A DNA stretch of 64,000 bases from Bdellovibrionales bacterium RIFCSPHIGHO2_01_FULL_40_29 (GTDB taxonomy: Bacteria > Bdellovibrionota > Bdellovibrionia > Bdellovibrionales > Bdellovibrionaceae): contig MEPU01000012.1 of NCBI GenBank assembly GCA_001771815.1, positions 62,001 through 126,000 of the forward strand. Direction: 5' to 3'. Made by a program: the position numbers and the translations under genes. Shown piece by piece: positions 34,092-45,779 of this stretch; within the stretch, counting starts at the first letter, position 1; each line of letters starts with the position of its first letter. The notes beneath the pieces were generated by a model, which searched no databases, was not told where the DNA came from, and saw nothing but the letters and a program-made list of their open reading frames with translations.

Positions 34092-35168
34092 CTAGCGATA
34101 GTCATTGAAATAATCTATATGCCTTGGAATCCAGGGCTCAAAAAAGCCTTCTAACTCGTACACATGACCAGAATCGATGACTTTTTCACGAAGAGGTTCC
34201 ACTTTTGTCGTCCATGACATGGATATCATTTTTTTTTCTATAAAATAATTCTTAATCATTTCAAAACTAGAAAGTCCTAAGATTCGACGCCGAGTTAATT
34301 CTTCGAAAGCAAATACCAACTGATCATTGGTGAAACCAAACTTTTGAGTGAGCTCATCAATGATCATTCCAAGTTCCTCAAGGGAAAGCCTTTGATCCTG
34401 AACTAAATCCAGAGCAACTTGAAAGGTATTCGAAGTTGGAAAAGTTCTGCGGCCAAATTTTAAATAATATTCGGGATCTGTATCCGTCGCCAGATTGATA
34501 TAAATTTTCTCAACGGGATCCTGAATAACAATCAAAGATTGCAATCGTAAAATCTCATCTATCTGAGCATGGGTCACACCGAAATCATCTAGGATTTCAG
34601 TCAATTGAGCTTCCGTGTGGCGTCTTGCACAAATGTCTGAAAATAAATTATAAATGTTGGCATCAGATTCAGAATCATCTCCGAAACAAATCATTCGTAC
34701 ACCCGGACACAAACGTGTGCGCAGTTGCAACAACGATTGCACTTTGTAACCCACTTGTTTTTTTAAAAATAAAATTCTTTTAGGGGCCAAATTGCGGAGA
34801 TTGTCTTTGTAAAACATCCCCAAAGGGCGAATCTCATCCAGCAAAAACTTTTCATAAATTTTTGATTCCATTTGCGGAGGAGAGGCTGAAACAAAAAAAA
34901 TCGGCAGATCCTCTTCTTGGAAATTTTTCTTGCGGTAGCGCCCGAGGCTTCGAATAAGGCTTTGTGTACCAGGCACATTTTTTTTGGTAAACGCCTTTTC
35001 GAATATTGTTCGAAACAATCCCCCCAAGGAATCAATAGATGTATCCAGATACGTCTTATCCAAATCCCAGACATAAACTTCCGGACTGCTCTCTATTTGA
35101 GCTTTTGGCTCGTAATCAAAATAAACCACATCTAAATTCGTGGTAGAGCGTTGTTTCCAGTGAGTCAT
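34092..35168 (-). CDS. App1-like (DUF2183) HAD-fold phosphatase
   Basis: A 358-residue soluble protein. The HAD-type nucleophile motif is VWDLDKTYLDTS near residues 32-42, the second motif is FVSASPPQM, and the metal-binding acidic motif is CFGDDSESDANIYN. This combination fits the App1 family of phosphatases acting on phosphatidate in yeast, although the bacterial substrates are unknown. A helical C-terminal half (~190-358) has no recognised domain. It is divergent from the 35235 gene, 66 nt apart. Confidence 0.75.
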   Translation of the reverse strand: MTHWKQRSTTNLDVVYFDYEPKAQIESSPEVYVWDLDKTYLDTSIDSLGGLFRTIFEKAFTKKNVPGTQSLIRSLGRYRKKNFQEEDLPIFFVSASPPQMESKIYEKFLLDEIRPLGMFYKDNLRNLAPKRILFLKKQVGYKVQSLLQLRTRLCPGVRMICFGDDSESDANIYNLFSDICARRHTEAQLTEILDDFGVTHAQIDEILRLQSLIVIQDPVEKIYINLATDTDPEYYLKFGRRTFPTSNTFQVALDLVQDQRLSLEELGMIIDELTQKFGFTNDQLVFAFEELTRRRILGLSSFEMIKNYFIEKKMISMSWTTKVEPLREKVIDSGHVYELEGFFEPWIPRHIDYFNDYR

Positions 35169-35234: not shown

Positions 35235-35708
35235 ATGGTGAATTCAATACCCGGCTCGTTTGATCTCTGGAAATCTGAAAAAAAAGTGAAAGACTCTGAC
35301 CTGATTTTTACGCGTGCGCTAAAAACACAGTTTCAGCAGGACTTATTTCATCGATTATCGAATACCTTAGCTGATCTAAAGCCCAGCTTTACCGAAGGAC
35401 TTCAATTACTTGAAATGGTCACAGATCTAATTCTGATGGATTATACCGAAGCCCTGTTTGTTTATACCGAAGATCTGGACACCTACCGCACTTATTTGCG
35501 TAACCTTCGCTATCCCATGACAACTCATCATGATGATGTCTTGAAACATAAATTTACAGAAATGCCTTGGCCACAAGGTGCTAAAGTTAAGTTTGAACGT
35601 CGTGGAGATCGAGCTGGAGTTGAAGTTCGTTTTTTTGTGAGTTCTGCAACTGATATCACCAAATTGATTGCAGCCTTAGAACGCGTTCAAATCGAGATGG
35701 GTCAATGA
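35235..35708 (+). CDS. hypothetical protein preceding the radical SAM gene
   Basis: A 157-residue soluble protein (MVNSIPGSFDLWKSEKK). It has no signal peptide or named domain. It overlaps the radical SAM gene by 4 nt (ATGA), so the two are translationally coupled and may act together. It is rich in aromatic and acidic residues in the middle (DYTEALFVYTEDLDTYRTYL). Confidence 0.65.
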   Translation: MVNSIPGSFDLWKSEKKVKDSDLIFTRALKTQFQQDLFHRLSNTLADLKPSFTEGLQLLEMVTDLILMDYTEALFVYTEDLDTYRTYLRNLRYPMTTHHDDVLKHKFTEMPWPQGAKVKFERRGDRAGVEVRFFVSSATDITKLIAALERVQIEMGQ

Positions 35709-36835
35709 ACTATTTATTTAATGCACTTCCCAACTTTACACGAATTGAAATCTCGCCCAGCAGTCGAGATTCTGAAGTTGCTGATCGCATTCGCTCTCTG
35801 TACCCCAAGGATATTATTGTTGAACTGGATTCGGATATCGACGCCACCGCAAACAAAGGCATCATGTCAGCTGACGAGTTTAATGCTTCAAAAAAATCTT
35901 TGTTGCTAACAACCTTCAAAGGTCAATTTTTTAAACGCTGTCCAGGAGCCACTCAAAAAAAAGCCCTGACCTGTTGTAATTACCATGTTCTTAACCTTGG
36001 CAGTCAGTGCAATATGAATTGCAGCTATTGTTATTTGCAAAGTTATTTAAATTCAAAACAAACAAAAATATTTACAAATATCGATGACGCTTTGTTGGAA
36101 TTAAAATCAATGGCGGATCAATTTGCGGAACACCCTTTTCGAGTTGGTACAGGCGAAGTGATTGATTCTTTGTCGTTAGATCAATTGACATTGTATTCGC
36201 GAAAACTGATTCCATTTTTCAATCAGTATCCAAAATGGAGTTTAGAGTTTAAAACCAAATCTCACTTTGTAGATCAATTCTTGGATCTGGAAACAGTCGG
36301 CAATACCATTGCCAGCTGGTCCGTGAATCCGGACTATATTATCGAACGCGAAGAACATGGAACGGCATCACTCGAGCAACGCCTGACCGCAGCCCGAAAA
36401 TGCAAAGATAAAGGCTTTCAATTGGCTTTTCATATTGATCCCATGATTTGGCATCCTGAATGGAAAGAAAATTATTCCTTTTTAGCAGAACAAATTCAAA
36501 AATATTTCAGTGCTGACGACGTGAGTATTATTTCTATGGGTGCGTTACGATTTCAACCGGAGCAAAGGCATATGATGCGCGAACGGTTTGGCATGAAGTC
36601 CTTGGTGACTTCTGCGGAAATGTTTCCCAGCGAAGGAAATAAATTACGCTATGATGCCAGTGTTCGAGCGGAAATGTTTCAATTTATGCTGAAATGTTTC
36701 AAAGAGAATAGTTCGAAGTGGAATATTTTCTTATGTATGGAAACACCGGAAACATGGATCGGATCTTTTGAAAAAATTCCGATCCAAATTCCCGAGTTGC
36801 GTTCGGTTTTTAAACCTCTACCAACTCTTACTTAA
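35705..36835 (+). CDS. spore-photoproduct-lyase-like radical SAM protein
   Basis: A 376-residue radical SAM enzyme. The 4Fe-4S motif is QCNMNCSYCYLQ (C102, C106, C109), with further cysteines C90-C91. The region following (HPFRVGTGEVIDSLSLDQLTLYSRKLIPFF) and EFKTKSH are characteristic of the SPL family. These enzymes repair spore photoproduct, but many homologues occur in non-sporulating bacteria. The stop lies inside the left copy of a 25-bp direct repeat, and a small hairpin plus a T-run there (36825-36850) can terminate transcription. Here no sporulation genes accompany it. Confidence 0.85.
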   Translation: MNYLFNALPNFTRIEISPSSRDSEVADRIRSLYPKDIIVELDSDIDATANKGIMSADEFNASKKSLLLTTFKGQFFKRCPGATQKKALTCCNYHVLNLGSQCNMNCSYCYLQSYLNSKQTKIFTNIDDALLELKSMADQFAEHPFRVGTGEVIDSLSLDQLTLYSRKLIPFFNQYPKWSLEFKTKSHFVDQFLDLETVGNTIASWSVNPDYIIEREEHGTASLEQRLTAARKCKDKGFQLAFHIDPMIWHPEWKENYSFLAEQIQKYFSADDVSIISMGALRFQPEQRHMMRERFGMKSLVTSAEMFPSEGNKLRYDASVRAEMFQFMLKCFKENSSKWNIFLCMETPETWIGSFEKIPIQIPELRSVFKPLPTLT

Positions 36836-36879: not shown

Positions 36880-39800
36880 TTACGGGCTAGTCCTCACGAG
36901 GCGGAACCCAACATCGCCATCCCGAAAACTCGGACCGAGGTTGCCGCGAAAACCCGAACGCGAGAGCTCTGCAATATAGCTCCAACTACCGCCACGTACC
37001 ACGCGGTGAGAGCCCGAAATACCTAATGGATCATTTCCACCAGGTAATTTACTACTTCCATCCCAAGAGTCTTTATTCCATTCCCACACGTTGCCTTCCA
37101 AATCATAAAAAGGCTTTCCATCAATGACTCGTGGCTGAAGCGTTGCTACCGCGTGAGTCTGACTTCCTGCATTTCCAGAAAACCAAGCGTGATTAGGCAC
37201 ATCAACCTCGTCATCGCGATCGAAATGTTTTTTGTTAGCATTTCCGCGATCTCGCATCACGAACTCCCATTGCGCCACTGAAGGGAAATCATAAATGTCG
37301 CCTTTTTTATGACCAGAAATAAGTTTTTCTAAAAGATCCTGCGTCTTCATATCACCTGTGCTTGATAGCCGATTTAAGCCTTCAATATATCCTTTAACAT
37401 CTTCCCAGCTCACTTGTTCGACCGGATGATCCGCCTTCATTTGAACATCAATTCCTTCGATATGAACTGTCGTACTATCAGTTCCAGTTTTGAAATTCGA
37501 CGGATTGATTTTATTCAAATCTTTTTCGCCCATCGCAATCTTAAGTCTGGCCCACATCATTTGCGTCACTTGTGTCGCCATCATTTCAAATGGTTTTGTG
37601 ATTTCTGTACTGACCTGTGATCCAATTTCACCCATCATGAATTTTCCAGGCTTAATCTCATGGAAAGTCATTTTCTTGGCAAAATTCACTGGGTCAAGAG
37701 CTTCTTTAACAACTTTTTTCTGCTCTTCTTTTTTCTTTTCTTCCTGTTTTCCCGTGTCTTTAGTTTCAGCCTGGATTCTTAAGATAATCGTTTTCATTTT
37801 TTCTTTTAATTGATCACGTGTCATAATTTTATGATCTTCCAAATACTTAATAAGTTCGGCCTCTTTTTTTACGTAATCTTGCTTAAGCGCGGTTAATTGC
37901 AACGAACTTGCGCCTTGAACTTTGTCAGTTTCAAGTTTTAGTCTGAATCTTGATAAATTTTCGATTGCCATGCCTATTGATTTTTGAATATCCGCTGGAA
38001 CTTTACTACGCTGACTACTTTGGCTTAAACTCGGAAATAACTCAGGATACTTAGTAATTTCAGATTTGTATTCAGACATAAAATCCTGCGTGACAGAATT
38101 TACAACTTGAATATAATCACGAGCCTCATCAATCATCATTTCTAAGTGAAATCGTGTGCGTGAATCCAACACTCCTGATCCCAAAAGTCTTTCGATGACC
38201 TGAGAATCATTTTTAAATTCTAATGTGCCATCCGGATGAGAAATGCTTATAATTTTTTGCGGTGCCCAGTAGCCAAGTCCTTCAAAGAAAAGATTTAAAT
38301 CCTTCATCTGAACTGTGGTCTTAATATCTCTGAAAGCCACACCTTGCATCATTTGATGAACGATGAACCGCGCTTTGAATTGATCGATCAATTTAATAAC
38401 GGTTCTATCAGAAGCACTTCCTGCAGCAGAAACGTAGTAATCTGGAAATTCACGAGGGTCCATTTTGTTAGCTTTTCTAGTTTCTTCTTCTTTTTTTATT
38501 CTCAAAGCCAAGAACTTTTCTTGAATTTTTGCTAACGCCTCTTTAACGGCTGGATTTTCAAATTCAACTTGATCAACTAAAGGCTTCAATTCGCCAACAC
38601 CTAATAGACCTTTCCAGTTTGGTGAAATACCTTTTTCAAGATTAGATAAAAACTGTGTTAACGCAGCTTCAGATGAAATTTTGTTCGATACGTAAACTTT
38701 GTTCGCCGCACGGTCCATGACCGCTTCACCCGTTGATCTGTCTTCGTGATACGAATCTAAAAACTCGCTCGGCATTTTATTAGAGGTTAAAATAGCAGTT
38801 CTTAATGCCGTTTTAATCACTTGGTTACCCGCAAAAACTTCGCGCTCATTTAAAATTGAAAGAAGGGCTGTAATCGTTTGTGGATTGGCTTTGTCAACTT
38901 CATCTAAAATGGCAAAAATGAACTTTTCTGAAGCTAAGCTCGTTGAAGTTTCAATTTCTTCGATACCATGATTAAGTTGCTTTTCAATTTTTGGAAAGCC
39001 GATTAAGACTCCTTCTGGAAGTAACTTATGGAACTGAAGCAAAAATCGCTCAAATACTTTTGGCTTTTCTTGTTTCATTCTTTGTAAGACCGCATGAATA
39101 AATTTTTGATCCGCTTTTTTACTAGTCAAAATCTTTTTAGTAAACGCATCAATTTGATCAGCATTTAATTTCTTAAGTTCTGATTTTAAAATCACCTCAG
39201 CTAAAGCGGTTTTTGCTCCGCCCGGAGGACCGAACACATAAAGATGATTTTCAGATAAAATCCCTGTCAAATGTGCTTCGATTGAGTGTTCAAGCTCGAC
39301 AAATCTTTGCTTGATGGCCTTCACTTCGTAACCCATCCAATCATAGTATCTGCCAACACGCTCTTTTTCTGGTGCTGTCATCATTTCACGTCTAAAAGCT
39401 CTGATCTCTTTAGCTGAACGTGGAGGCAGTAACTTTTGTGTGGCTTGGATTTGGCGCTGTGTGTTTTTATCAGATTGTTGATTTAAAGTTTCTGCAAATT
39501 GCTGAAGATCTTGTTTAATACTTTCAAGCTCTTTAGCCGTTCGTTCTTTTACTGTACCCTTAGCTAAAAGTTTATCAATCGCTGCGGAATCAATTTCAAA
39601 TTGCGGCTTAGCTAAGTTTACTTTATTAGCAGCTAAAATTTCATTAAGTCGATTGCCAATGCTATTATCATCCACCGAATAATCTTTAAATTCAGGTGAT
39701 TTGCTTTCAACAACCCACTTATTTTGGCCAGCCTGATTTTCTAATTTCAAAATAATTTGCGTGTTTCCTTCCAGATCTTGAAGGAAAAGCTTCCCATCAT

Positions 39801-41064
39801 ACGGCGAATATTCGACCTGAAGCTGTGATTTTATGCCCAAATCCGATTGGACTTGAATTCCACCAGCCAATATTTTGCCGTCTTTAATTTCAGTGACTTT
39901 AAAAGTTTTAAGTCTAACTTGAGATGGACCAATATAGAGTGCACTTTTAGCCAAAAGTGCTAAATCTTCTTTTTGTGGCGTTAGACGCACTTTTTCAAAT
40001 GGCACACCTTGCATGAGCTGATGAGCTACAAGTGAAGCTTTAAAAACTTGAATCATCCGTCTGACTGAGCGATTCGAGAACTGGTTGGCCGGAAAGTATT
40101 CACTTTCTGCTTCACCGTATCTGACTTGTTCCCGTGATTTATCAGCTTTGCTCGTGACGTAGCGATCAAAATTTCTTGCGATTTCTACGATGTCTGCCAT
40201 CATGTCGTCTGAAATTTTAACTTTATTCACTAAAATTTCTAATTCTCTAAGAGGAAGATTGATTTTTAATTTTTGTGGATTTTTAACCAGGTCATACATC
40301 GCAATCGTTTCGCGACTTGATAACTGCTGATTCGGAATATGGATTTTAATTGCCATGCGATCCAGCAATGCCTCACCTGATGGACGATCAGAATAGAAGC
40401 CTTGAATAAATTCACCTGTTGTTTTGTTTGATGTGAACACACCACTGGCCAAAATACTGTCGACGATTTTTGAACCTAAGAAAGCTTTTCTTTCATTTAA
40501 TACAGATAAAAGGGCATTTAAAACAGCCGGATTTGACTTTTCAGCTTCATCAGCGATCAAAAATAAAAATTTATCTCCGACAAGAGAACTTGAGGTTTCA
40601 ATTTCGTATTTTCCTTCTTTCATCATACTTGAAAATTTTTGAAATCCCGAAATTTTTCCTTCTGAAATAAGTTTATGAAATTGCAGCAGAAATATTTTTT
40701 TATCGCCTTCAGGAATTGAATTCAATACGGATTGAAACATGATCCTAGATAAAAATGTTTTAGCACCGCCGGGCTCTCCATTGATCCACACGAATTCTTT
40801 AGCTAAAATGGCTGTCGTTAATGCTTCAATAACTTGAGATCTGCCATAAACCACTTGATCAATCTGTTTTAATGCGTTGACAGATTCAGCCCAAGACATC
40901 TGAGATGATCTTGCTGTGGGTTGAAGTACAGCCTGCGGCGACGCTTTTTGAAACCCCTTATTTGCAAACAGATCTTCACATCTATTAGCGGCTTTTACTG
41001 AAATTGCATTTCCAGTTAAAGCTAACAATAGTATAGATGTCTTTAAACCAAATATTTTAGGCAT
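36880..41064 (-). CDS. exported tandem MoxR-type AAA+ protein with C-terminal FGE-like domain
   Basis: A ~1394-residue protein starting at ATG 41064 (GGAG 6 nt upstream; another ATG at 41076). A signal peptide (MPKIFGLKTSILLLALTGNAISVKA) is followed by NRCEDLF (27-33). Two MoxR/RavA-like AAA+ domains follow: first with Walker A GEPGGAKT (96-103), Walker B LIADEAEKS (DE 172-173) and TSNKTTGEF; second with GPPGGAKT (612-619), ILDEVDKA (DE 721-722) and TSNKMPSEF. A K/E-rich helical stretch leads to an FGE-sulfatase-like domain (~1126-1394: PVEQVSWEDVKGYIEGLN, DLEGNVWEWN, VVRGGSWSY, GFRLVR). No catalytic FGE cysteines are visible. Divergent from the vWA gene at 41184. Confidence 0.88.
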   Translation of the reverse strand: MPKIFGLKTSILLLALTGNAISVKAANRCEDLFANKGFQKASPQAVLQPTARSSQMSWAESVNALKQIDQVVYGRSQVIEALTTAILAKEFVWINGEPGGAKTFLSRIMFQSVLNSIPEGDKKIFLLQFHKLISEGKISGFQKFSSMMKEGKYEIETSSSLVGDKFLFLIADEAEKSNPAVLNALLSVLNERKAFLGSKIVDSILASGVFTSNKTTGEFIQGFYSDRPSGEALLDRMAIKIHIPNQQLSSRETIAMYDLVKNPQKLKINLPLRELEILVNKVKISDDMMADIVEIARNFDRYVTSKADKSREQVRYGEAESEYFPANQFSNRSVRRMIQVFKASLVAHQLMQGVPFEKVRLTPQKEDLALLAKSALYIGPSQVRLKTFKVTEIKDGKILAGGIQVQSDLGIKSQLQVEYSPYDGKLFLQDLEGNTQIILKLENQAGQNKWVVESKSPEFKDYSVDDNSIGNRLNEILAANKVNLAKPQFEIDSAAIDKLLAKGTVKERTAKELESIKQDLQQFAETLNQQSDKNTQRQIQATQKLLPPRSAKEIRAFRREMMTAPEKERVGRYYDWMGYEVKAIKQRFVELEHSIEAHLTGILSENHLYVFGPPGGAKTALAEVILKSELKKLNADQIDAFTKKILTSKKADQKFIHAVLQRMKQEKPKVFERFLLQFHKLLPEGVLIGFPKIEKQLNHGIEEIETSTSLASEKFIFAILDEVDKANPQTITALLSILNEREVFAGNQVIKTALRTAILTSNKMPSEFLDSYHEDRSTGEAVMDRAANKVYVSNKISSEAALTQFLSNLEKGISPNWKGLLGVGELKPLVDQVEFENPAVKEALAKIQEKFLALRIKKEEETRKANKMDPREFPDYYVSAAGSASDRTVIKLIDQFKARFIVHQMMQGVAFRDIKTTVQMKDLNLFFEGLGYWAPQKIISISHPDGTLEFKNDSQVIERLLGSGVLDSRTRFHLEMMIDEARDYIQVVNSVTQDFMSEYKSEITKYPELFPSLSQSSQRSKVPADIQKSIGMAIENLSRFRLKLETDKVQGASSLQLTALKQDYVKKEAELIKYLEDHKIMTRDQLKEKMKTIILRIQAETKDTGKQEEKKKEEQKKVVKEALDPVNFAKKMTFHEIKPGKFMMGEIGSQVSTEITKPFEMMATQVTQMMWARLKIAMGEKDLNKINPSNFKTGTDSTTVHIEGIDVQMKADHPVEQVSWEDVKGYIEGLNRLSSTGDMKTQDLLEKLISGHKKGDIYDFPSVAQWEFVMRDRGNANKKHFDRDDEVDVPNHAWFSGNAGSQTHAVATLQPRVIDGKPFYDLEGNVWEWNKDSWDGSSKLPGGNDPLGISGSHRVVRGGSWSYIAELSRSGFRGNLGPSFRDGDVGFRLVRTSP

Positions 41065-41145
41065 TGGAGTCTCCATAATTACATTAGGTTCAATAATTAT
41101 GCCGTCATCTGTTTATGTATCACTTTGATTCACTTAGATGATTTT

Positions 41146-41151
41146 TTGACA
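41146..41151 (+). promoter_or_regulatory. candidate -35 box for the vWA gene
   Basis: A perfect TTGACA sits 33 nt upstream of the ATG at 41184 in the 119-nt divergent gap of the two module genes. The -10 match at 17 bp (TTGCAT) is poor, so this is only a weak promoter candidate. Confidence 0.25.
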
Positions 41152-41183
41152 GCCACCAGGCCCCTGTCTTGCATTAAATACTT

Positions 41184-44100
41184 ATGATGAAAAATTTTAT
41201 TTCGCACTTATCTTTAATATTAGCTCTTCATACTGTAAGTGCCAACGCTCATGCGACTAATCGCTGCGAAGATCTTTTTTCACCGACTTCTACAGCTAAA
41301 ACTCAAAACAAATCTTTAACTTTGACTAATGAATCTTGGGAACAATTTTATAAAAAATCTGATTTAAATCCAAGACCCGCGCTGTGGCTAAAGATTAGAC
41401 AGTCGTTAGAAAAGCACGTTACTCATCTTCAAAACCCTTTAGAAACGGCTGGAACTGATGCCAATAGAATTGGGGCCGTCTATAAATCAATGGTCCTAGA
41501 GCTTCCACTCTTAAAGACACTGATCGAAGCTGATCGGCTGCCAAAATTAAGTCATGCTGACTTTATTACTTTAAAAAGGCTAGCCGCTAATCTGATTATT
41601 TCAGTAAGTGGTAAACCAAACTCAGCCCTTCAAGTTTTTGCAAGCCTTGAGGCTTTAAAATATATTTCTTCAATCGAATCTCGCGTTGAATTTCCAAGAA
41701 CTAAAGAGGAAATCGAAAAAGAGACTAAAAAACAAGAGATCGACAAAAAGAAGCAGGAAAAGAAAGATAAAGATCAGCCCGAAGATGACGAACCACCAAA
41801 ATGGAATAAAGCAGAAGATAAATACAAGCCTGAAAATAAGGACATCAGTTCTGAAGATGGCGGAAAGAAAAAAAACGCCGACATTTTGATGACCGATGCT
41901 GATGTGCCAAAGCGTCTTTTAAGACAAAAAATTTATGATCTTTTTGATCTTAAAGATTGGTCATCAAATCCTGTTCAACGAAACGCTCTGGTGAAAGAAA
42001 ATTCTTTTACGAAAAAAATGATTATTGATTCTCTTGGCGAATCCGAAGTCGATGTTCCAGTTCCCTATGGATACACACTTGTTCCCGGAAAATACACTGG
42101 CTATGAGATTAAAGAAATTGGCCCTGGAGAATTTAAACTATACCCCAGCAGTAAAGAAAAAGTTACATTAGGGCTAAGTCGAATTATTGATGAACAGCAC
42201 AACTCAAGTTTGCGCCGACCTGTTGGGGTTGACGTCCTAGCTCACTGGCCAATGCATTTAATCACTTTTACTGAAAGCTTAAAAGGCCTTTCCGCTGTAG
42301 AAGCGGCTTTGAGAATGGAAAAATACATCTCTTTAGATGGTGGATTTCTATATTACTCAAAAGGCGATAAGATTGATGAGGCAGAGCTTTCCAAAATTGA
42401 TCAAAAAATGAATTCACTTCTAACTCAAATGCCAAAACCAATGGCGATGGCTAATGCCGGCGCATTTAACTGTGATGGGGCCGCGTGGATCGGTGCTATT
42501 TTACTTCGAGATGTTCTAGGTCACCAAGTACGCATAGCTGGAGGCAGAACTTCGGCTGGCATAAAAACTATAGAAAATAATAAATTCCATGTTGTGAGAT
42601 CCTCTGATCCAGCCCACGCATGGCTTGAGGTCTATGATGGTAAAAACTGGAAGCCATTTGATATGACGCCAAAAAACAATACACCTGATTCTGACTCAGT
42701 CCCTACTGATTTGCAAAGAGACGAGCCGCAAGAATCACCGCCCAAAGATAGCAAGCCTGACCAACAAAAAGGTGAACAAAAATCTAAGTCTGATAGCAAA
42801 GATAAAGGCACTGATGAAAAAGAAGCTGGCGAAAGTAAAGGCGATAAATCTGGAAAAGATGAAGCCATCGATAGCGAAACCAGAAAAATTGACGAACTCA
42901 TTAAAGCCAAATCAACGCAACGACAAAAAGATGAATCGCACTTAGCTTTGATTGATAAACTTTTAAATCGTAATGAATTGATGTTTTTGGAACATTTAAT
43001 ATACGATGGTCATCAAACTAAATTCGTTGATGAATCAAATCAAGTTTTAACAAACTTAAAAGCTCAGCCGAACTGGAAAAATCCAGTCGAAAGGTCTGAA
43101 CAAAAAATAGCTGGAATTTTAAATGAATCAAAATTTTCTAAATTTCATGGGCTAAGTCATTTGATTAACGAAATCAGAGTTGACTTCGGACAAAATAAAT
43201 CTCGCGATGCAAGACAAAAAATGATGATCGCGGAACGTCTTCTACTAACACTTTCTGAATACCGTAATTTAACACGTGCAGAAATTGAAGCTTTAACGAC
43301 AATCCAAAGAATATCCTCAATGTTGGATCAAATGAAGCATAAAAACTCAAAAGAATTTGATGTGGTTGATCAGCTTTTAAAAGACTTACCAGGTAATGTT
43401 TCAAAAGAGTGGTTGAGTCGTCAGTACGGAAAAGGTTTTGACCAATTAGGCACTTCATCAAATATCAAACTTGCAAACGACTTAGTTTCTGGAAAATTAA
43501 AGCCACTTCTTCAAATGGGGGCCGTGAATGATTTTGTTGATATGACATTAAATTCATCTCAAGAACCACAGTGGAGGGACGAGCCTACTTTAAATCGAAG
43601 TATTCTTCCAAAACCACGTCAAGATTTAATCGTTACTAGAAATCCACTGGATTTCGCAAAAATGCTTTGGAACTTACGCCCTGGTGAAAATATGTTTGCG
43701 CCGACACTTCAAGGTCGTCAGTTTGCTATGGGAAGTCTTGAAACACGCCGAGTTCCAAATCCTAAAAATCCAATCGAAAGAAAAGTCTCAGTTGTGTACT
43801 ATGACATTTCAGGCTCTATGAAAGGTCATCCTTTAGAAACAGTAGATGCACTTCTTATGACTTTTGCAGACAAGGCTTTGTCAGAGGTCGATGCCATTGG
43901 AAGACCAACGCATGAAATTTATTTAATACCTTTTAATGATAAGATTTACGAAGGCATTCATATCTCGTCACGTGAGGATGCAAAGAATTTCTTAGCGAAA
44001 AAAATGAATATGCGAACTCAAGCAGTGGGCGGAACTGATATTCAAAAAGTCATTGAAAATTTTTACAGTTTAATTTCATCAAGCTATCAGAACAAGTCAG

Positions 44101-44735
44101 GTCAAGGTCGTGAAAAGTTATTTCAAAAGGCGAATATGATCTTATTCACTGACGGTGGCTCAGCGATTGATATGCAAAGAATTGAAGTGGCCAGAAAAAA
44201 AATTCCAAGTGCTGTTCAGATTAATATGAATTTTGTATCGATTGGTGATTCAGTTAATGAAACTCTTAAAGCTTTGTCATCGAATAGCAAACTTTCAACG
44301 ACAAAGCCGACATTCAGAGAAATGAATTCTGGGATGATTGATTCAGTCGTTGGAGTTTCATCAAACTATGACCCGGCTGCTTTCGCGACTGAGCAGAAAC
44401 TATCAGGTCAGGTTTTAGTAGAAATTAGCGAGCAACTTCAAAAAATTAATATCGACCCTAGACAGCCTGGAAATAAAGACCAGATCGACAAAGCTGTGTC
44501 ACAGATCCAAATTACTAAAGCTGATGTCAGCAAACTTTCTGGCCTTCGTGAAATTTTAAATCTGCAAAAGCTTGAAACCGTCATTGATGACATGAAAATT
44601 AACCAAGTTACTAAGCAAAGATTGGTCCTGGCAATCATCGAATCGTATCAGCAACTGTCCGGCAGAAGTTGGAAAGATATGACGTATGGTGAGAAAGAAA
44701 CCTTAGAAAAATTAAAAAAGTGGTCAAGCCTTTAA
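41184..44735 (+). CDS. exported transglutaminase-like and von Willebrand A domain protein
   Basis: An 1183-residue protein. Signal peptide (~1-25), then NRCEDLF (26-32) shared with the divergent AAA protein. After a helical region and a K/E/D-rich low-complexity linker (~175-230), a transglutaminase-like domain carries the triad Cys430 (FNCDGAAW), His478 (AHAWLEVY) and Asp493 (PFDMTPKN). A second charged linker (~497-585) precedes a helical segment and a vWA domain with an intact MIDAS (DISGSM at 874-879, GGTDIQ, LFTDGGS). MoxR ATPases commonly pair with vWA proteins and transglutaminases, so this is the probable partner of the gene at 36880. Both being exported is unusual. Confidence 0.88.
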   Translation: MMKNFISHLSLILALHTVSANAHATNRCEDLFSPTSTAKTQNKSLTLTNESWEQFYKKSDLNPRPALWLKIRQSLEKHVTHLQNPLETAGTDANRIGAVYKSMVLELPLLKTLIEADRLPKLSHADFITLKRLAANLIISVSGKPNSALQVFASLEALKYISSIESRVEFPRTKEEIEKETKKQEIDKKKQEKKDKDQPEDDEPPKWNKAEDKYKPENKDISSEDGGKKKNADILMTDADVPKRLLRQKIYDLFDLKDWSSNPVQRNALVKENSFTKKMIIDSLGESEVDVPVPYGYTLVPGKYTGYEIKEIGPGEFKLYPSSKEKVTLGLSRIIDEQHNSSLRRPVGVDVLAHWPMHLITFTESLKGLSAVEAALRMEKYISLDGGFLYYSKGDKIDEAELSKIDQKMNSLLTQMPKPMAMANAGAFNCDGAAWIGAILLRDVLGHQVRIAGGRTSAGIKTIENNKFHVVRSSDPAHAWLEVYDGKNWKPFDMTPKNNTPDSDSVPTDLQRDEPQESPPKDSKPDQQKGEQKSKSDSKDKGTDEKEAGESKGDKSGKDEAIDSETRKIDELIKAKSTQRQKDESHLALIDKLLNRNELMFLEHLIYDGHQTKFVDESNQVLTNLKAQPNWKNPVERSEQKIAGILNESKFSKFHGLSHLINEIRVDFGQNKSRDARQKMMIAERLLLTLSEYRNLTRAEIEALTTIQRISSMLDQMKHKNSKEFDVVDQLLKDLPGNVSKEWLSRQYGKGFDQLGTSSNIKLANDLVSGKLKPLLQMGAVNDFVDMTLNSSQEPQWRDEPTLNRSILPKPRQDLIVTRNPLDFAKMLWNLRPGENMFAPTLQGRQFAMGSLETRRVPNPKNPIERKVSVVYYDISGSMKGHPLETVDALLMTFADKALSEVDAIGRPTHEIYLIPFNDKIYEGIHISSREDAKNFLAKKMNMRTQAVGGTDIQKVIENFYSLISSSYQNKSGQGREKLFQKANMILFTDGGSAIDMQRIEVARKKIPSAVQINMNFVSIGDSVNETLKALSSNSKLSTTKPTFREMNSGMIDSVVGVSSNYDPAAFATEQKLSGQVLVEISEQLQKINIDPRQPGNKDQIDKAVSQIQITKADVSKLSGLREILNLQKLETVIDDMKINQVTKQRLVLAIIESYQQLSGRSWKDMTYGEKETLEKLKKWSSL

Positions 44736-44748
44736 GAGCGATTTCCTT

Positions 44749-44773
44749 TACCAACTCTTACTTAAGAGATTTC
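44749..44773. repeat. right copy of the 25-bp direct repeat bracketing the AAA/vWA module
   Basis: Exact match to 36819-36843, 7,930 bp apart. The 3' end of the 179-residue leftward gene (stop 44758-44760) lies within it. A partial additional copy, TTAAGAG(CG)ATTTCC at 44732-44745, lies just inside the module end. Confidence 0.9.
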
Positions 44774-45297
44774 CAAAAAGTCTTAAGCTGTTCAACATTT
44801 TCGGTGGTGATCTTTTGATCAAAGCTCCAAACTAAAGCAATCAAACGACCATGAACAAATCCAATCACTGCATATCGATAGGGAAGCTTGGCATGGTGAT
44901 AGGAATCCGTCATTTGAAAATCACAGGCTTTTCCCACAGGGGTTTGAAATAATTGAACTGTTTTATCCACCTTCAAAGAACGATCTTCGGCTTTTCCAAA
45001 TATTTTTTCAACATACTCGGAACAAATTTTTGTGGTGATCAGCGTGCGGGATTCCTTTGGAAATTTATATAAATCGGCCTCGTTCAGGTTTGAATTGGGT
45101 TCATTGATCTGCACAAGACTTCCTTGATACTCGACAATTTTTCCCATATCTGAAAAACCCAATTCACTTTTTGCATAAAAAATTATTTCATGTGATGATT
45201 TGATATCAATCGATGATGGTTTTCGTTTTCCCGATTGGGCTACAGAAAGAACTGATATCAACAGCGTTGCTAAGATAATATAAAATTGTTTTTTCAT
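44758..45297 (-). CDS. exported hypothetical protein
   Basis: A 179-residue protein with a signal peptide (MKKQFYIILATLLISVLSVAQ). The mature part has two cysteines (TTKICSEYV, GKACDFQM) that could be disulfide-linked, and a beta/alpha-looking sequence. No family recognised. It is co-transcribed with the next upstream gene (4-nt overlap), both exported. Its last codons, FWKSLK, run into the 25-bp repeat. Confidence 0.65.
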   Translation of the reverse strand: MKKQFYIILATLLISVLSVAQSGKRKPSSIDIKSSHEIIFYAKSELGFSDMGKIVEYQGSLVQINEPNSNLNEADLYKFPKESRTLITTKICSEYVEKIFGKAEDRSLKVDKTVQLFQTPVGKACDFQMTDSYHHAKLPYRYAVIGFVHGRLIALVWSFDQKITTENVEQLKTFWKSLK

Positions 45298-45779
45298 TGA
45301 TTTCCTTTTCCAATCCCAGAAGGACTCTTATTATTTCCTGACCCCGATGAGCTTTCTGCTATGACCCGAGATATTTTTTTGAAACCAGCTTCATTCGTCA
45401 AAGTCATGGCCAGCTTGCCACGCAGTTTGACTTCAGTGGGACCACTGATCGCAATATTTTCATCTGGTTTAACAGGAAAAACGAGTCGAATCATCTTATC
45501 AGACGCACAAATACTAATATTCTTTTCAATAGGTTCATTGACAACAAGTGATGTCCCATTGAAAAAAAAGCGAATAGTGCCATCAACAAACTGAACACTT
45601 CCGACGGCCGAGGCTAAAAATGATTTATGAGTCAAATACACTGGAATAGTTTGTACAATCTTTGGAAGCTTCTCTTTAATAGCTTGATACTCATCTTGAT
45701 TCTTGAAGCAAACTTCATCAGTCGCCAAAATGGCTTCTGCACCGAAAAAGAGAAGACAAATAATCACTTTAATTTTCAT
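45294..45779 (-). CDS. exported hypothetical protein
   Basis: A 161-residue protein with a signal peptide (MKIKVIICLLFFGAEAILA). The mature region contains two cysteines (DEVCFKN, NISICASDK) and a beta-rich body with a Gly/Ser-rich C-terminal tail (SSSGSGNNKSPSGIGKGNQ). No domain recognised. It overlaps the next leftward gene by 4 nt. Confidence 0.65.
   Translation of the reverse strand: MKIKVIICLLFFGAEAILATDEVCFKNQDEYQAIKEKLPKIVQTIPVYLTHKSFLASAVGSVQFVDGTIRFFFNGTSLVVNEPIEKNISICASDKMIRLVFPVKPDENIAISGPTEVKLRGKLAMTLTNEAGFKKISRVIAESSSGSGNNKSPSGIGKGNQ

Follow-up and report, generated by a model that had tools for sequence, protein, structure and literature searches.

The P1-P2 locus

The window, by which we mean the whole 64,000-nucleotide stretch of Bdellovibrionales DNA analysed here, contains two divergent open reading frames, P1 and P2, which were found at exactly the coordinates given by a sequence-only reading made earlier (Table 1). 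Three weak promoter matches, all on the - strand, lie in the intergenic region, none of them clearly above shuffled sequence.

Table 1. Features of the P1-P2 locus, with positions in the window
Feature	Residues	Position	Strand	Details
P1	1398 aa	36880..41076	-	exported tandem MoxR AAA+ ATPase with C-terminal FGE-type C-type-lectin domain
P1 Sec signal peptide	1-29	40990..41076	-	AISVKA/A (slash, end of signal peptide)
P1 tag		40966..40986	-	NRCEDLF, N-terminus of mature protein; Cys33, sole Cys of P1
P1 AAA+ domain 1 (bpMoxR)	~68-390	39907..40875	-	Walker A GEPGGAKT, Walker B DEAEK, N217, R240, R336
P1 AAA+ domain 2	~595-942	38251..39294	-	Walker A GPPGGAKT, Walker B DEVDK
P1 linker	1024-1135	37672..38007	-	similar to parts of separate G027 proteins
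P1 FGE-sulfatase (C-type lectin) domain	1141-1395	36892..37656	-	lacks catalytic cysteines
P1 lectin-domain segment		36890..37015	-	can be aligned with template repeats from the DGRs of relatives
P1/P2 intergenic region		41077..41183	.	divergent, 107 bp
P2	1183 aa	41184..44735	+	exported transglutaminase-like and vWA protein
P2 Sec signal peptide	1-24	41184..41255	+	SANAHA/T
P2 tag		41259..41279	+	NRCEDLF, N-terminus of mature protein; Cys28
P2 beta region and transglutaminase-like fold	230-495	41871..42668	+	Cys430-His478-Asp493
P2 helical region	560-790	42861..43553	+
P2 vWA domain	867-1060	43782..44363	+	intact MIDAS

That P1 is a tandem MoxR-type AAA+ protein fused to an FGE-like domain was upheld by Pfam, in which both AAA copies (bpMoxR, PF20030, 3.8e-27; AAA_5, 4.2e-14, for the second copy) and FGE-sulfatase (2.9e-28) were matched; PF20030 was also matched in relatives. 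The Walker motifs are intact, as had been read from the sequence, with G100, G103 and K106 of Walker A and D176-E177 of Walker B invariant in 15 aligned sequences, as are the sensor residue N217 and Arg finger R240 and R336. The AlphaFold model of the tandem AAA region was poor (mean pLDDT 55) and was set aside. The best solved AAA+ relative is RavA (of RavA-ViaA), a cytoplasmic single-AAA protein, unlike the exported, tandem-AAA P1, and the score of P1 against the NCBIfam RavA equivalog (59.7 bits, cut-off 681) indicates that P1 is not RavA. The linker resembles G027:C3:180823-181101 (over residues 1032-1124) and G027:C2:136659-137096, and one of the G027 proteins that it matches is a tagged beta-propeller companion adjoining its ATPase.

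The idea that the FGE-like domain is an enzyme did not hold: the domain is devoid of cysteine and, because the one cysteine of P1 sits in the tag, it is not an FGE oxidase, and is better described as a lectin-like binder. Its closest solved sequence is Treponema denticola variable protein 1, and its relatives include PorK/GldK, the lipoprotein of the T9SS ring, whose fold is of the FGE type.

In P2, the vWA domain was confirmed (PF00092, E = 1.5e-8). The transglutaminase core of P2 itself (E = 0.0046) is under the Pfam cut-off; the transglutaminase-like assignment is nevertheless borne out by the relatives, in which the core is clear (3.9e-12 and 9.2e-11), and by the top PDB fold match, 6g4h, the periplasmic transglutaminase domain of TgpA (E = 2.8e-7). 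When the P2 family was searched as a profile against the PDB, most matches were to coiled coils, and the one informative match was a weak one to a TgpA chain (6g49, 0.008). The proposed catalytic triad and MIDAS both stand: in 11 relatives Cys430 and His478 are always retained and Asp493 almost always, and the MIDAS residues D874/S876/S878 and D990 are invariant. The C-terminus is helical in the structure model. Neither P2 nor the scanned relatives (L031, L034 and L036) gave a propeller match, there was no DUF58 match in the pair, and no VMAP-like Pfam match was found in the pair or in the scanned companions.

Export and the mature N-terminal tag

Both N-termini are, as claimed, textbook Sec signal peptides (SVKA/ANRCEDLF in P1 and NAHA/TNRCEDLF in P2), and both pass a strict hand-made test that is passed by 18% of the open reading frames of the window's own genome, which served as controls. 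Among the family proteins, companions included, the signal peptide is kept in 88/88 by a permissive rule and in 61/88 by the strict one. P1 and P2 have one signal peptide each and, by a hydropathy rule, no later membrane span. The mature proteins are also depleted of cysteine (0.21% in the AAA and 0.22% in the vWA family, compared with 1.1% in cytoplasmic-like and 0.9% in other exported proteins; a control set of relatives that included family members was excluded from this comparison). Three unrelated kinds of protein (ATPase, transglutaminase/vWA and binder) thus have signal peptides across many genera and, judged by their sequences, all parts of the system are made as Sec precursors that would be exported from the cytoplasm.

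Most of these proteins carry at the mature N-terminus a new tag, C-x-x-x-[F/Y/L], that is coherent within a genome; the motif tried initially, C-x-x-hydrophobic-[FY], was too narrow, Leu or Met being found in some genomes. The tag cysteine of P2, Cys28, is invariant in 11 aligned sequences. Two lineages (L053 and L062) are without the tag cysteine. The tags of the AAA and vWA proteins resemble each other far more within a locus (similarity 8.6) than between loci (1.6 +/- 1.1; 0/20000 permutations as high), and those of the companions likewise resemble their own locus (p = 5e-5). The last residue depends on the genome: it is F in the window's genome and Y in G035, where Y is also seen in proteins outside the system, and in G042, despite the 81% identity of its P1 to that of the window.

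Other exported proteins of the window's genome are tagged as well, among them one with a Fic domain (L147:9622-10668; PF02661, scoring above the cut-off) and one with an HEIRH motif, and one tagged protein is present in a congener that lacks the system. A system-specific tag was accordingly given up in favor of a genome-wide exported class, as a few other exported proteins are tagged too. This census covers 1.2 Mb of the 2.93 Mb genome plus two whole-genome pattern scans; a relaxed pattern scan of the same genome proved too degenerate to use alone.

A three-part system with arrays of binding proteins

Within Bdellovibrionota, P1 and P2 make up the central pair of a system with three components. 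The AAA gene adjoins the transglutaminase/vWA gene in 15 of the 16 genomes that carry P2, and there is co-evolution between the two families (mirror-tree r = 0.95, 19 loci). At the computational level, the earlier reading thus withstood both of its refuting conditions, N-termini rejected as signal peptides and genes that do not co-occur. The description of a two-gene system has nonetheless to be revised: the third part consists of one to seven exported binding proteins, in arrays, that terminate in an FGE lectin or in a beta-propeller of the WD40 type (WD40/kelch propellers or tandem FGE domains). Separate WD40/kelch proteins are found at L026, L028, L030, L032 and L056; at the window's locus, the FGE lectin is fused to the ATPase in place of a separate propeller protein.

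A relative, G068, has a diversity-generating retroelement (DGR), with reverse transcriptase and template repeat, that mutates lectin parts of the exported set, the differences lying at adenines of the template in 19/20 (p = 2e-11) and 12/13 (p = 4e-7) cases. When the alignable segment of the P1 lectin domain is compared with a foreign template, differences fall at 18/30 A sites versus 27/96 other sites (p = 0.002). A DGR in the window's own genome was ruled out, there being no match to RVT_1 (reverse transcriptase).

The system was found in 16 of 100 genomes searched, in one of the 14 genomes of the window's genus (the window's own) and in one of ~25 genomes of the best-sampled genus, g6. Such patchiness implies that it is not required for predation as such. 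P1 is 81% identical between genera in which PGK is 69% and PPK 59% identical, and the system is accessory, patchy and probably transferred.

Possible site and mode of action

Several known systems resemble this one in part. TgpA/YebA clusters (MoxR, DUF58/vWA and transglutaminase) bring together the same three enzyme types, with the Cys-His-Asp fold nearest to TgpA (6g4h), and have a cytoplasmic MoxR ATPase and the transglutaminase on a multi-pass membrane protein; here, in contrast, transglutaminase and vWA domains form one soluble exported protein. Plasmodium HSP101, in the PTEX translocon, is a signal-peptide-bearing AAA+ machine that is used beyond the cell producing it, where parasite and host meet, although it is eukaryotic, of the ClpB type and has unrelated partners, such that the parallel is an analogy only. 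The MoxR-vWA beta-propeller ternary conflict systems (Pfam bpMoxR, PF20030; Kaur et al., 2020; PMC7159879) likewise have a bpMoxR-type AAA+ protein adjoining a vWA protein, and variable accessory modules; their third component is often a beta-propeller, which here is seen as a separate protein at some loci and is replaced in the window by the fused FGE domain. Unlike in those systems, the parts described here are Sec-exported and mostly tagged (signal peptides go unmentioned in the main text of PMC7159879), the AAA+ is tandem, the P-loop is GxPGGAKT instead of GxxxTAKS (a motif reported there as frequent, not universal), the vWA protein has a transglutaminase domain and no propeller, and lectin arrays serve as an alternative third part. 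The MoxR ternary systems with DGR-diversified FGE/CLec sensors (PMC10907252) share the MoxR ATPase, the vWA protein and the FGE/CLec ligand-binding part, and a signal peptide was reported there for the DGR 5 target; in those systems the target alone is described as exported, whereas in the present one export extends to the ATPase and the vWA protein, and the window's genome has no reverse transcriptase. Our literature searches returned no paper joining Bdellovibrio with MoxR and vWA, and none joining TgpA with MoxR.

We propose, with about even confidence for and against, that the system is MoxR-vWA ternary machinery in exported form, sorted by its tag and most likely delivered into another cell. 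Each part, synthesised as a Sec precursor, would leave the cytoplasm. The tag is very probably read by a shared factor, different from one genome to the next, that would gather the parts at one place; this is probably a step in sorting or secretion. From the families involved, the FGE lectin or beta-propeller parts and the P2 vWA MIDAS would bind a protein target, which the tandem MoxR ATPase would then remodel with ATP and the transglutaminase-like thiol enzyme of P2 would cleave or cross-link. Lastly, and most speculatively, the machine may be delivered into another cell, most likely prey, or may act where prey ATP is released.

Delivery is plausible but unproven. To our knowledge the periplasm has no ATP pool, which, with the strict retention of the ATPase residues, argues for action outside the producer, in another cell; further support comes from the type II secretin encoded in the window's genome and from the tagged, exported Fic protein. 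No T6SS marker is present in that genome, and we know of no signal by which Sec substrates of these bacteria are translocated into a cytoplasm. The patchy distribution, with most sampled relatives lacking the system, weakens the delivery reading. Predator proteins bearing secretion signals have been detected inside prey (PMC11003981).

A possible but less probable alternative is a surface or periplasmic sensor or defence system, in which invaders or competitors reaching the envelope of the producer itself are sensed by the exported lectin or propeller parts, whereupon the transglutaminase-like effector is set off on the spot by the MoxR-vWA pair. The ATP would be external or released by damaged cells, so that the system fires when a cell bursts. 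The domain kit is that of the published conflict systems with FGE/CLec sensors (PMC7159879 and PMC10907252), the G068 lectin is diversified by a DGR, the solved protein closest to the P1 lectin is a DGR variable protein, and an accessory, patchy and probably transferred system would fit; yet no PADLOC model was matched convincingly (the only match, at 0.0011, is to a P-loop), the pair lacks a known effector or abortive-infection domain, the periplasm offers no standing ATP supply and the window's genome has no reverse transcriptase. It is unlikely that the system is an envelope assembly chaperone, akin to TgpA/YebA and relocated outside, that folds, inserts or cross-links the producer's envelope proteins: the nearness of the fold to periplasmic TgpA and the kinship of the P1 lectin with PorK/GldK are offset by a patchiness and by variable tandem binder arrays unlike housekeeping, by the need for periplasmic ATP and by the complete absence of the classical TgpA-cluster membrane topology. 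Very improbable is a cytoplasmic P1 and P2, as in ordinary MoxR-vWA pairs, with N-termini that are not functional signal peptides, given that signal peptide and tag are kept by three unrelated families across many genera and the mature proteins are cysteine-depleted. That P1 is an AAA+-powered FGE-type maturation enzyme or sulfatase activator, to which its Pfam match might point, has a negligible chance of being correct, since the copper/thiol site is missing, no cysteine beyond the tag is available, FGE oxidase activity is thereby refuted and the fold is common to non-enzymatic DGR variable proteins.

The MoxR-vWA machines are a widespread group of AAA+ systems, for most of which no substrate is known, and those described are thought to be cytoplasmic or at the membrane of the cytoplasm. 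That a whole set is exported while its ATPase residues stay strictly conserved raises the question of what supplies the ATP, and points to a site beyond the producing cell. Additional cargo encoded in the genome can be predicted from the shared tag, and the Fic protein and unannotated proteins were found in this way. More tentatively still, the tag may address proteins to a delivery route of predatory bacteria that has not been described before. ATP-using machines and enzymes (MoxR-vWA-transglutaminase, a Clp/M41 protease, a Fic protein and a metalloprotease-like protein) would leave the cell by this route and enter prey, as would lectins diversified by retroelements. Should the tag be a delivery signal, a catalogue of effectors would come within reach for predators whose way of killing is still largely unknown.

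Domains, active-site residues and export of P1 and P2

The genes for P1 and P2 are divergent and separated by 107 bp. P1 contains two MoxR-type AAA+ domains (Pfam bpMoxR, 3.8e-27, and AAA_5, 4.2e-14) and ends in an FGE-sulfatase/C-type-lectin domain (2.9e-28), and P2 combines a vWA domain (1.5e-8) with a weak match to the transglutaminase core (0.0046). We take this weak match to be real because relatives of P2 score 3.9e-12 and 9.2e-11, because the P2 triad is conserved and because the best PDB match of the predicted P2 structure (Foldseek; mean pLDDT 69.7) is the periplasmic transglutaminase domain of TgpA; the model also matches many vWA structures, among them the MIDAS domain of Rea1/midasin. 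The sequence-only reading had described the Walker motifs and the Cys430-His478-Asp493 triad as intact, and alignment of the families agrees: Walker A, Walker B, sensor 1, the Arg finger and one C-terminal Arg are invariant across 15 P1 sequences (the model of the AAA region itself is of low confidence, pLDDT 55), and across 11 P2 sequences C430 and H478 are invariant and D493 nearly so.

Signal peptides, which that reading had also assigned to both proteins, were called by two hand-made rules, one permissive and one strict, and P1 (METPMPKIFGLKTSILLLALTGNAISVKA followed by ANRCEDLF) and P2 (MMKNFISHLSLILALHTVSANAHA followed by TNRCEDLF) pass both. Among 88 family proteins (23 ATPases, 21 vWA proteins and 44 companions, the latter being further exported binding proteins near the pair), all pass the permissive rule and 61 the strict one, as compared with 18% of 872 ORFs from the window's own genome under the strict rule. 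Cysteine is scarce, with one in the 1398 residues of P1 and two in the 1183 of P2; mature ATPases average 0.21% and mature vWA proteins 0.22%, whereas the window's genome gives 1.1% for cytoplasmic-like proteins and 0.9% for the rest of its exported proteins. Judged by the signal-peptide rules and, independently, by this depletion, export of the system's proteins is close to certain.

Beside the pair lie a radical SAM gene resembling spore photoproduct lyase, together with a small partner (window 35235-36835; below the NCBIfam cut-off), a protein matching the phosphatidate phosphatase APP1 catalytic domain (34092-35168; 1.2e-13) and, convergent to P2, two small untagged signal-peptide proteins without significant Pfam match (44758-45779). 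We know of no spore formation in the source bacterium.

Locations of P1, P2, other tagged proteins and diversity-generating retroelements (DGRs)
Feature	Location	Strand	Description
P1	window 36880-41076	-	ORF
P2	window 41184-44735	+	ORF
QLRCFDLF protein	L097:6023-6985, window's genome, contig C4		exported, 320 aa, no family
QIRCEDLF protein	L097:8428-9564, window's genome, contig C4		exported, 378 aa, HEIRH motif
GGNLLCKDVF protein	window's genome		exported, 245 aa
KICFQLF protein	L147:9622-10668, window's genome, contig C13		exported, 348 aa, Fic domain above Pfam cut-off
Clp/M41 protein	L088:154-4455, genome G068		exported Clp-type AAA+ with M41 zinc-protease domain, next to the G068 lectin
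DGR	L088:8885-10043		FGE-type or lectin-like target
DGR	L090:2757-3916		FGE-type or lectin-like target
DGR	L089:11585-12704		FGE-type or lectin-like target

Composition and distribution of the system

Relatives of P2 are present in 16 of 100 related genomes, and in 15 of these an exported P1-family ATPase gene adjoins, as the sequence-only reading had led one to look for; in the sixteenth (G021) the P2 relative is cut off by the contig end. The distance matrices of the two families correlate (r 0.95 over 19 loci; 0/5000 permutations as high). Scanning 84,980 species genomes by pattern, an approach that distant members elsewhere could escape, returned 19 loci, most of them labelled Bdellovibrionota, Bdellovibrionales, Bdellovibrionia, Bacteriovoracia, Bacteriovoracales, Oligoflexia or Oligoflexales and the remainder Deltaproteobacteria or Proteobacteria only.

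The description as a two-gene system did not survive, since the pair is often flanked by one to seven extra exported proteins of ~400-550 aa, which end in WD40 or kelch-like beta-propellers (L026, L028, L030, L032, L056) or in FGE lectins (L042, L056, L057, L063; more weakly L049). Residues 1032-1124 of P1, part of its linker, match a separate companion in genome G027 that stands beside an ATPase without lectin, which indicates that in the window this third component is fused to the ATPase. At one locus (L054:458-22739) a lone vWA gene is accompanied by two genes of the single-AAA type, a tandem array of about seven tagged companions and a tagged protein of 2110 aa.

A genome-specific N-terminal tag

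The tag consists of a Cys behind the signal peptide with F, Y, L or M four residues on, a pattern (C...[FLYM]) that fits 72 of the 88 family proteins within the first ~16 mature residues; in the L053 and L062 lineages the cysteine is absent from all parts. Although the ATPases and vWA proteins are non-homologous, the two tags of a locus match (CEDLF for both in the window, CEDFY for both in G042, CSNIF with CDGIF in G060), with a mean similarity of 8.6 as against 1.6 +/- 1.1 for shuffled partners (0/20000 as high), and companion tags agree with them too (p = 5e-5).

The tag marks a class of exported proteins and is not exclusive to the system. In a census of the window's genome (1.2 Mb, 435 exported non-membrane proteins) the strict tag occurs in only a few proteins besides P1 and P2, the convincing cases being the QLRCFDLF, QIRCEDLF, GGNLLCKDVF and KICFQLF proteins of the table. 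Over the whole genome, exactly four proteins have R/S-C-x-D-L-F in frame after a signal peptide. The QLRCFDLF and QIRCEDLF proteins lie within 3.6 kb of each other; no relative of the latter was found among the other 99 genomes searched. An RCSALF-tagged protein is also present in the congener G002, a genome without the system. The residue at Cys+4 tracks the genome, being F in the window's genome, Y in G035 (in both systems and in two unrelated exported proteins) and L or M in G068; the counts, some chance matches included, are 9 F/2 Y in the window's genome and 0 F/11 Y in G035 (p 2e-4). In G042, a congener of G035, P1 is 81% identical to that of the window and carries CEDFY. The housekeeping proteins of the same two genomes share less, 69% identity for PGK and 59% for PPK, so that the pair was probably transferred and its tag later adapted to the new host. 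From this pattern we infer a genome-encoded reader that would co-evolve with the tag.

Lectin diversification, known systems and the source of ATP

The P1 lectin domain has no cysteine, which excludes FGE catalysis. Its closest solved sequence is a Treponema denticola DGR variable protein (2y3c, 6e-16), and three DGRs belong to Bdellovibrionota genomes carrying the system. In G068 a DGR adjoins an exported, tagged FGE protein (L088:4459-7629), and of the 126 sites compared between template and variable repeat 20 differ, 19 of which fall on template adenines (p 2e-11); a second variable repeat, in the FGE gene of the contig-end array L042, has 13 differing sites, 12 of them adenines (p 4e-7), and the end of this array resembles the contig end beside the MoxR operon (L031). 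The Clp/M41 protein of G068 ends in NRCADLLSGKL, the N-terminal tag of the next gene's product placed here at the opposite end. A reverse transcriptase was not found in the window's genome. When the P1 lectin segment is aligned to templates from other genomes, the differences are adenine-biased (p 0.002 and 0.0008); this possible DGR trace is suggestive only, because the codons concerned encode the ligand-binding surface and would diverge in any case.

By the features tested, the system falls outside both the beta-propeller and the VMAP systems that have been published: its vWA protein lacks a propeller, there is no VMAP, the P-loop is another one and the parts are exported. We file it as a new variant of MoxR-vWA systems. 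The available text of PMC10907252 reports that in a MoxR-associated system one DGR target has a signal peptide, and does not describe the MoxR ATPase and vWA partners as exported, as they are here. In MoxR-vWA systems generally, the vWA MIDAS holds a target peptide and the MoxR ring remodels the target by ATP hydrolysis (PMC7159879). By analogy, P1 and P2 most likely work in a similar way, with the lectin or propeller parts as the likely means of target recognition, and the P2 thiol enzyme may cleave or cross-link the target.

The strict conservation of the ATPase residues implies that ATP is used and hence that the machine has to encounter it beyond the cell that makes it. Fic enzymes use ATP as well, so that the exported Fic protein raises the matter of an ATP supply just as the ATPase does; with its matching kind of tag, it too points to an ATP-containing target. 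Its motif reads HPIADKNGR, the published one being HPFx[D/E]GN[G/K]R (PMC2686095). Delivery of the machine into prey is the simplest answer, its main rival being a role in defence or sensing at the envelope of the producing cell; the tagged Fic protein, the type II secretin of the window's genome and the precedent of predators placing proteins that bear secretion signals inside prey (PMC11003981) count toward delivery.
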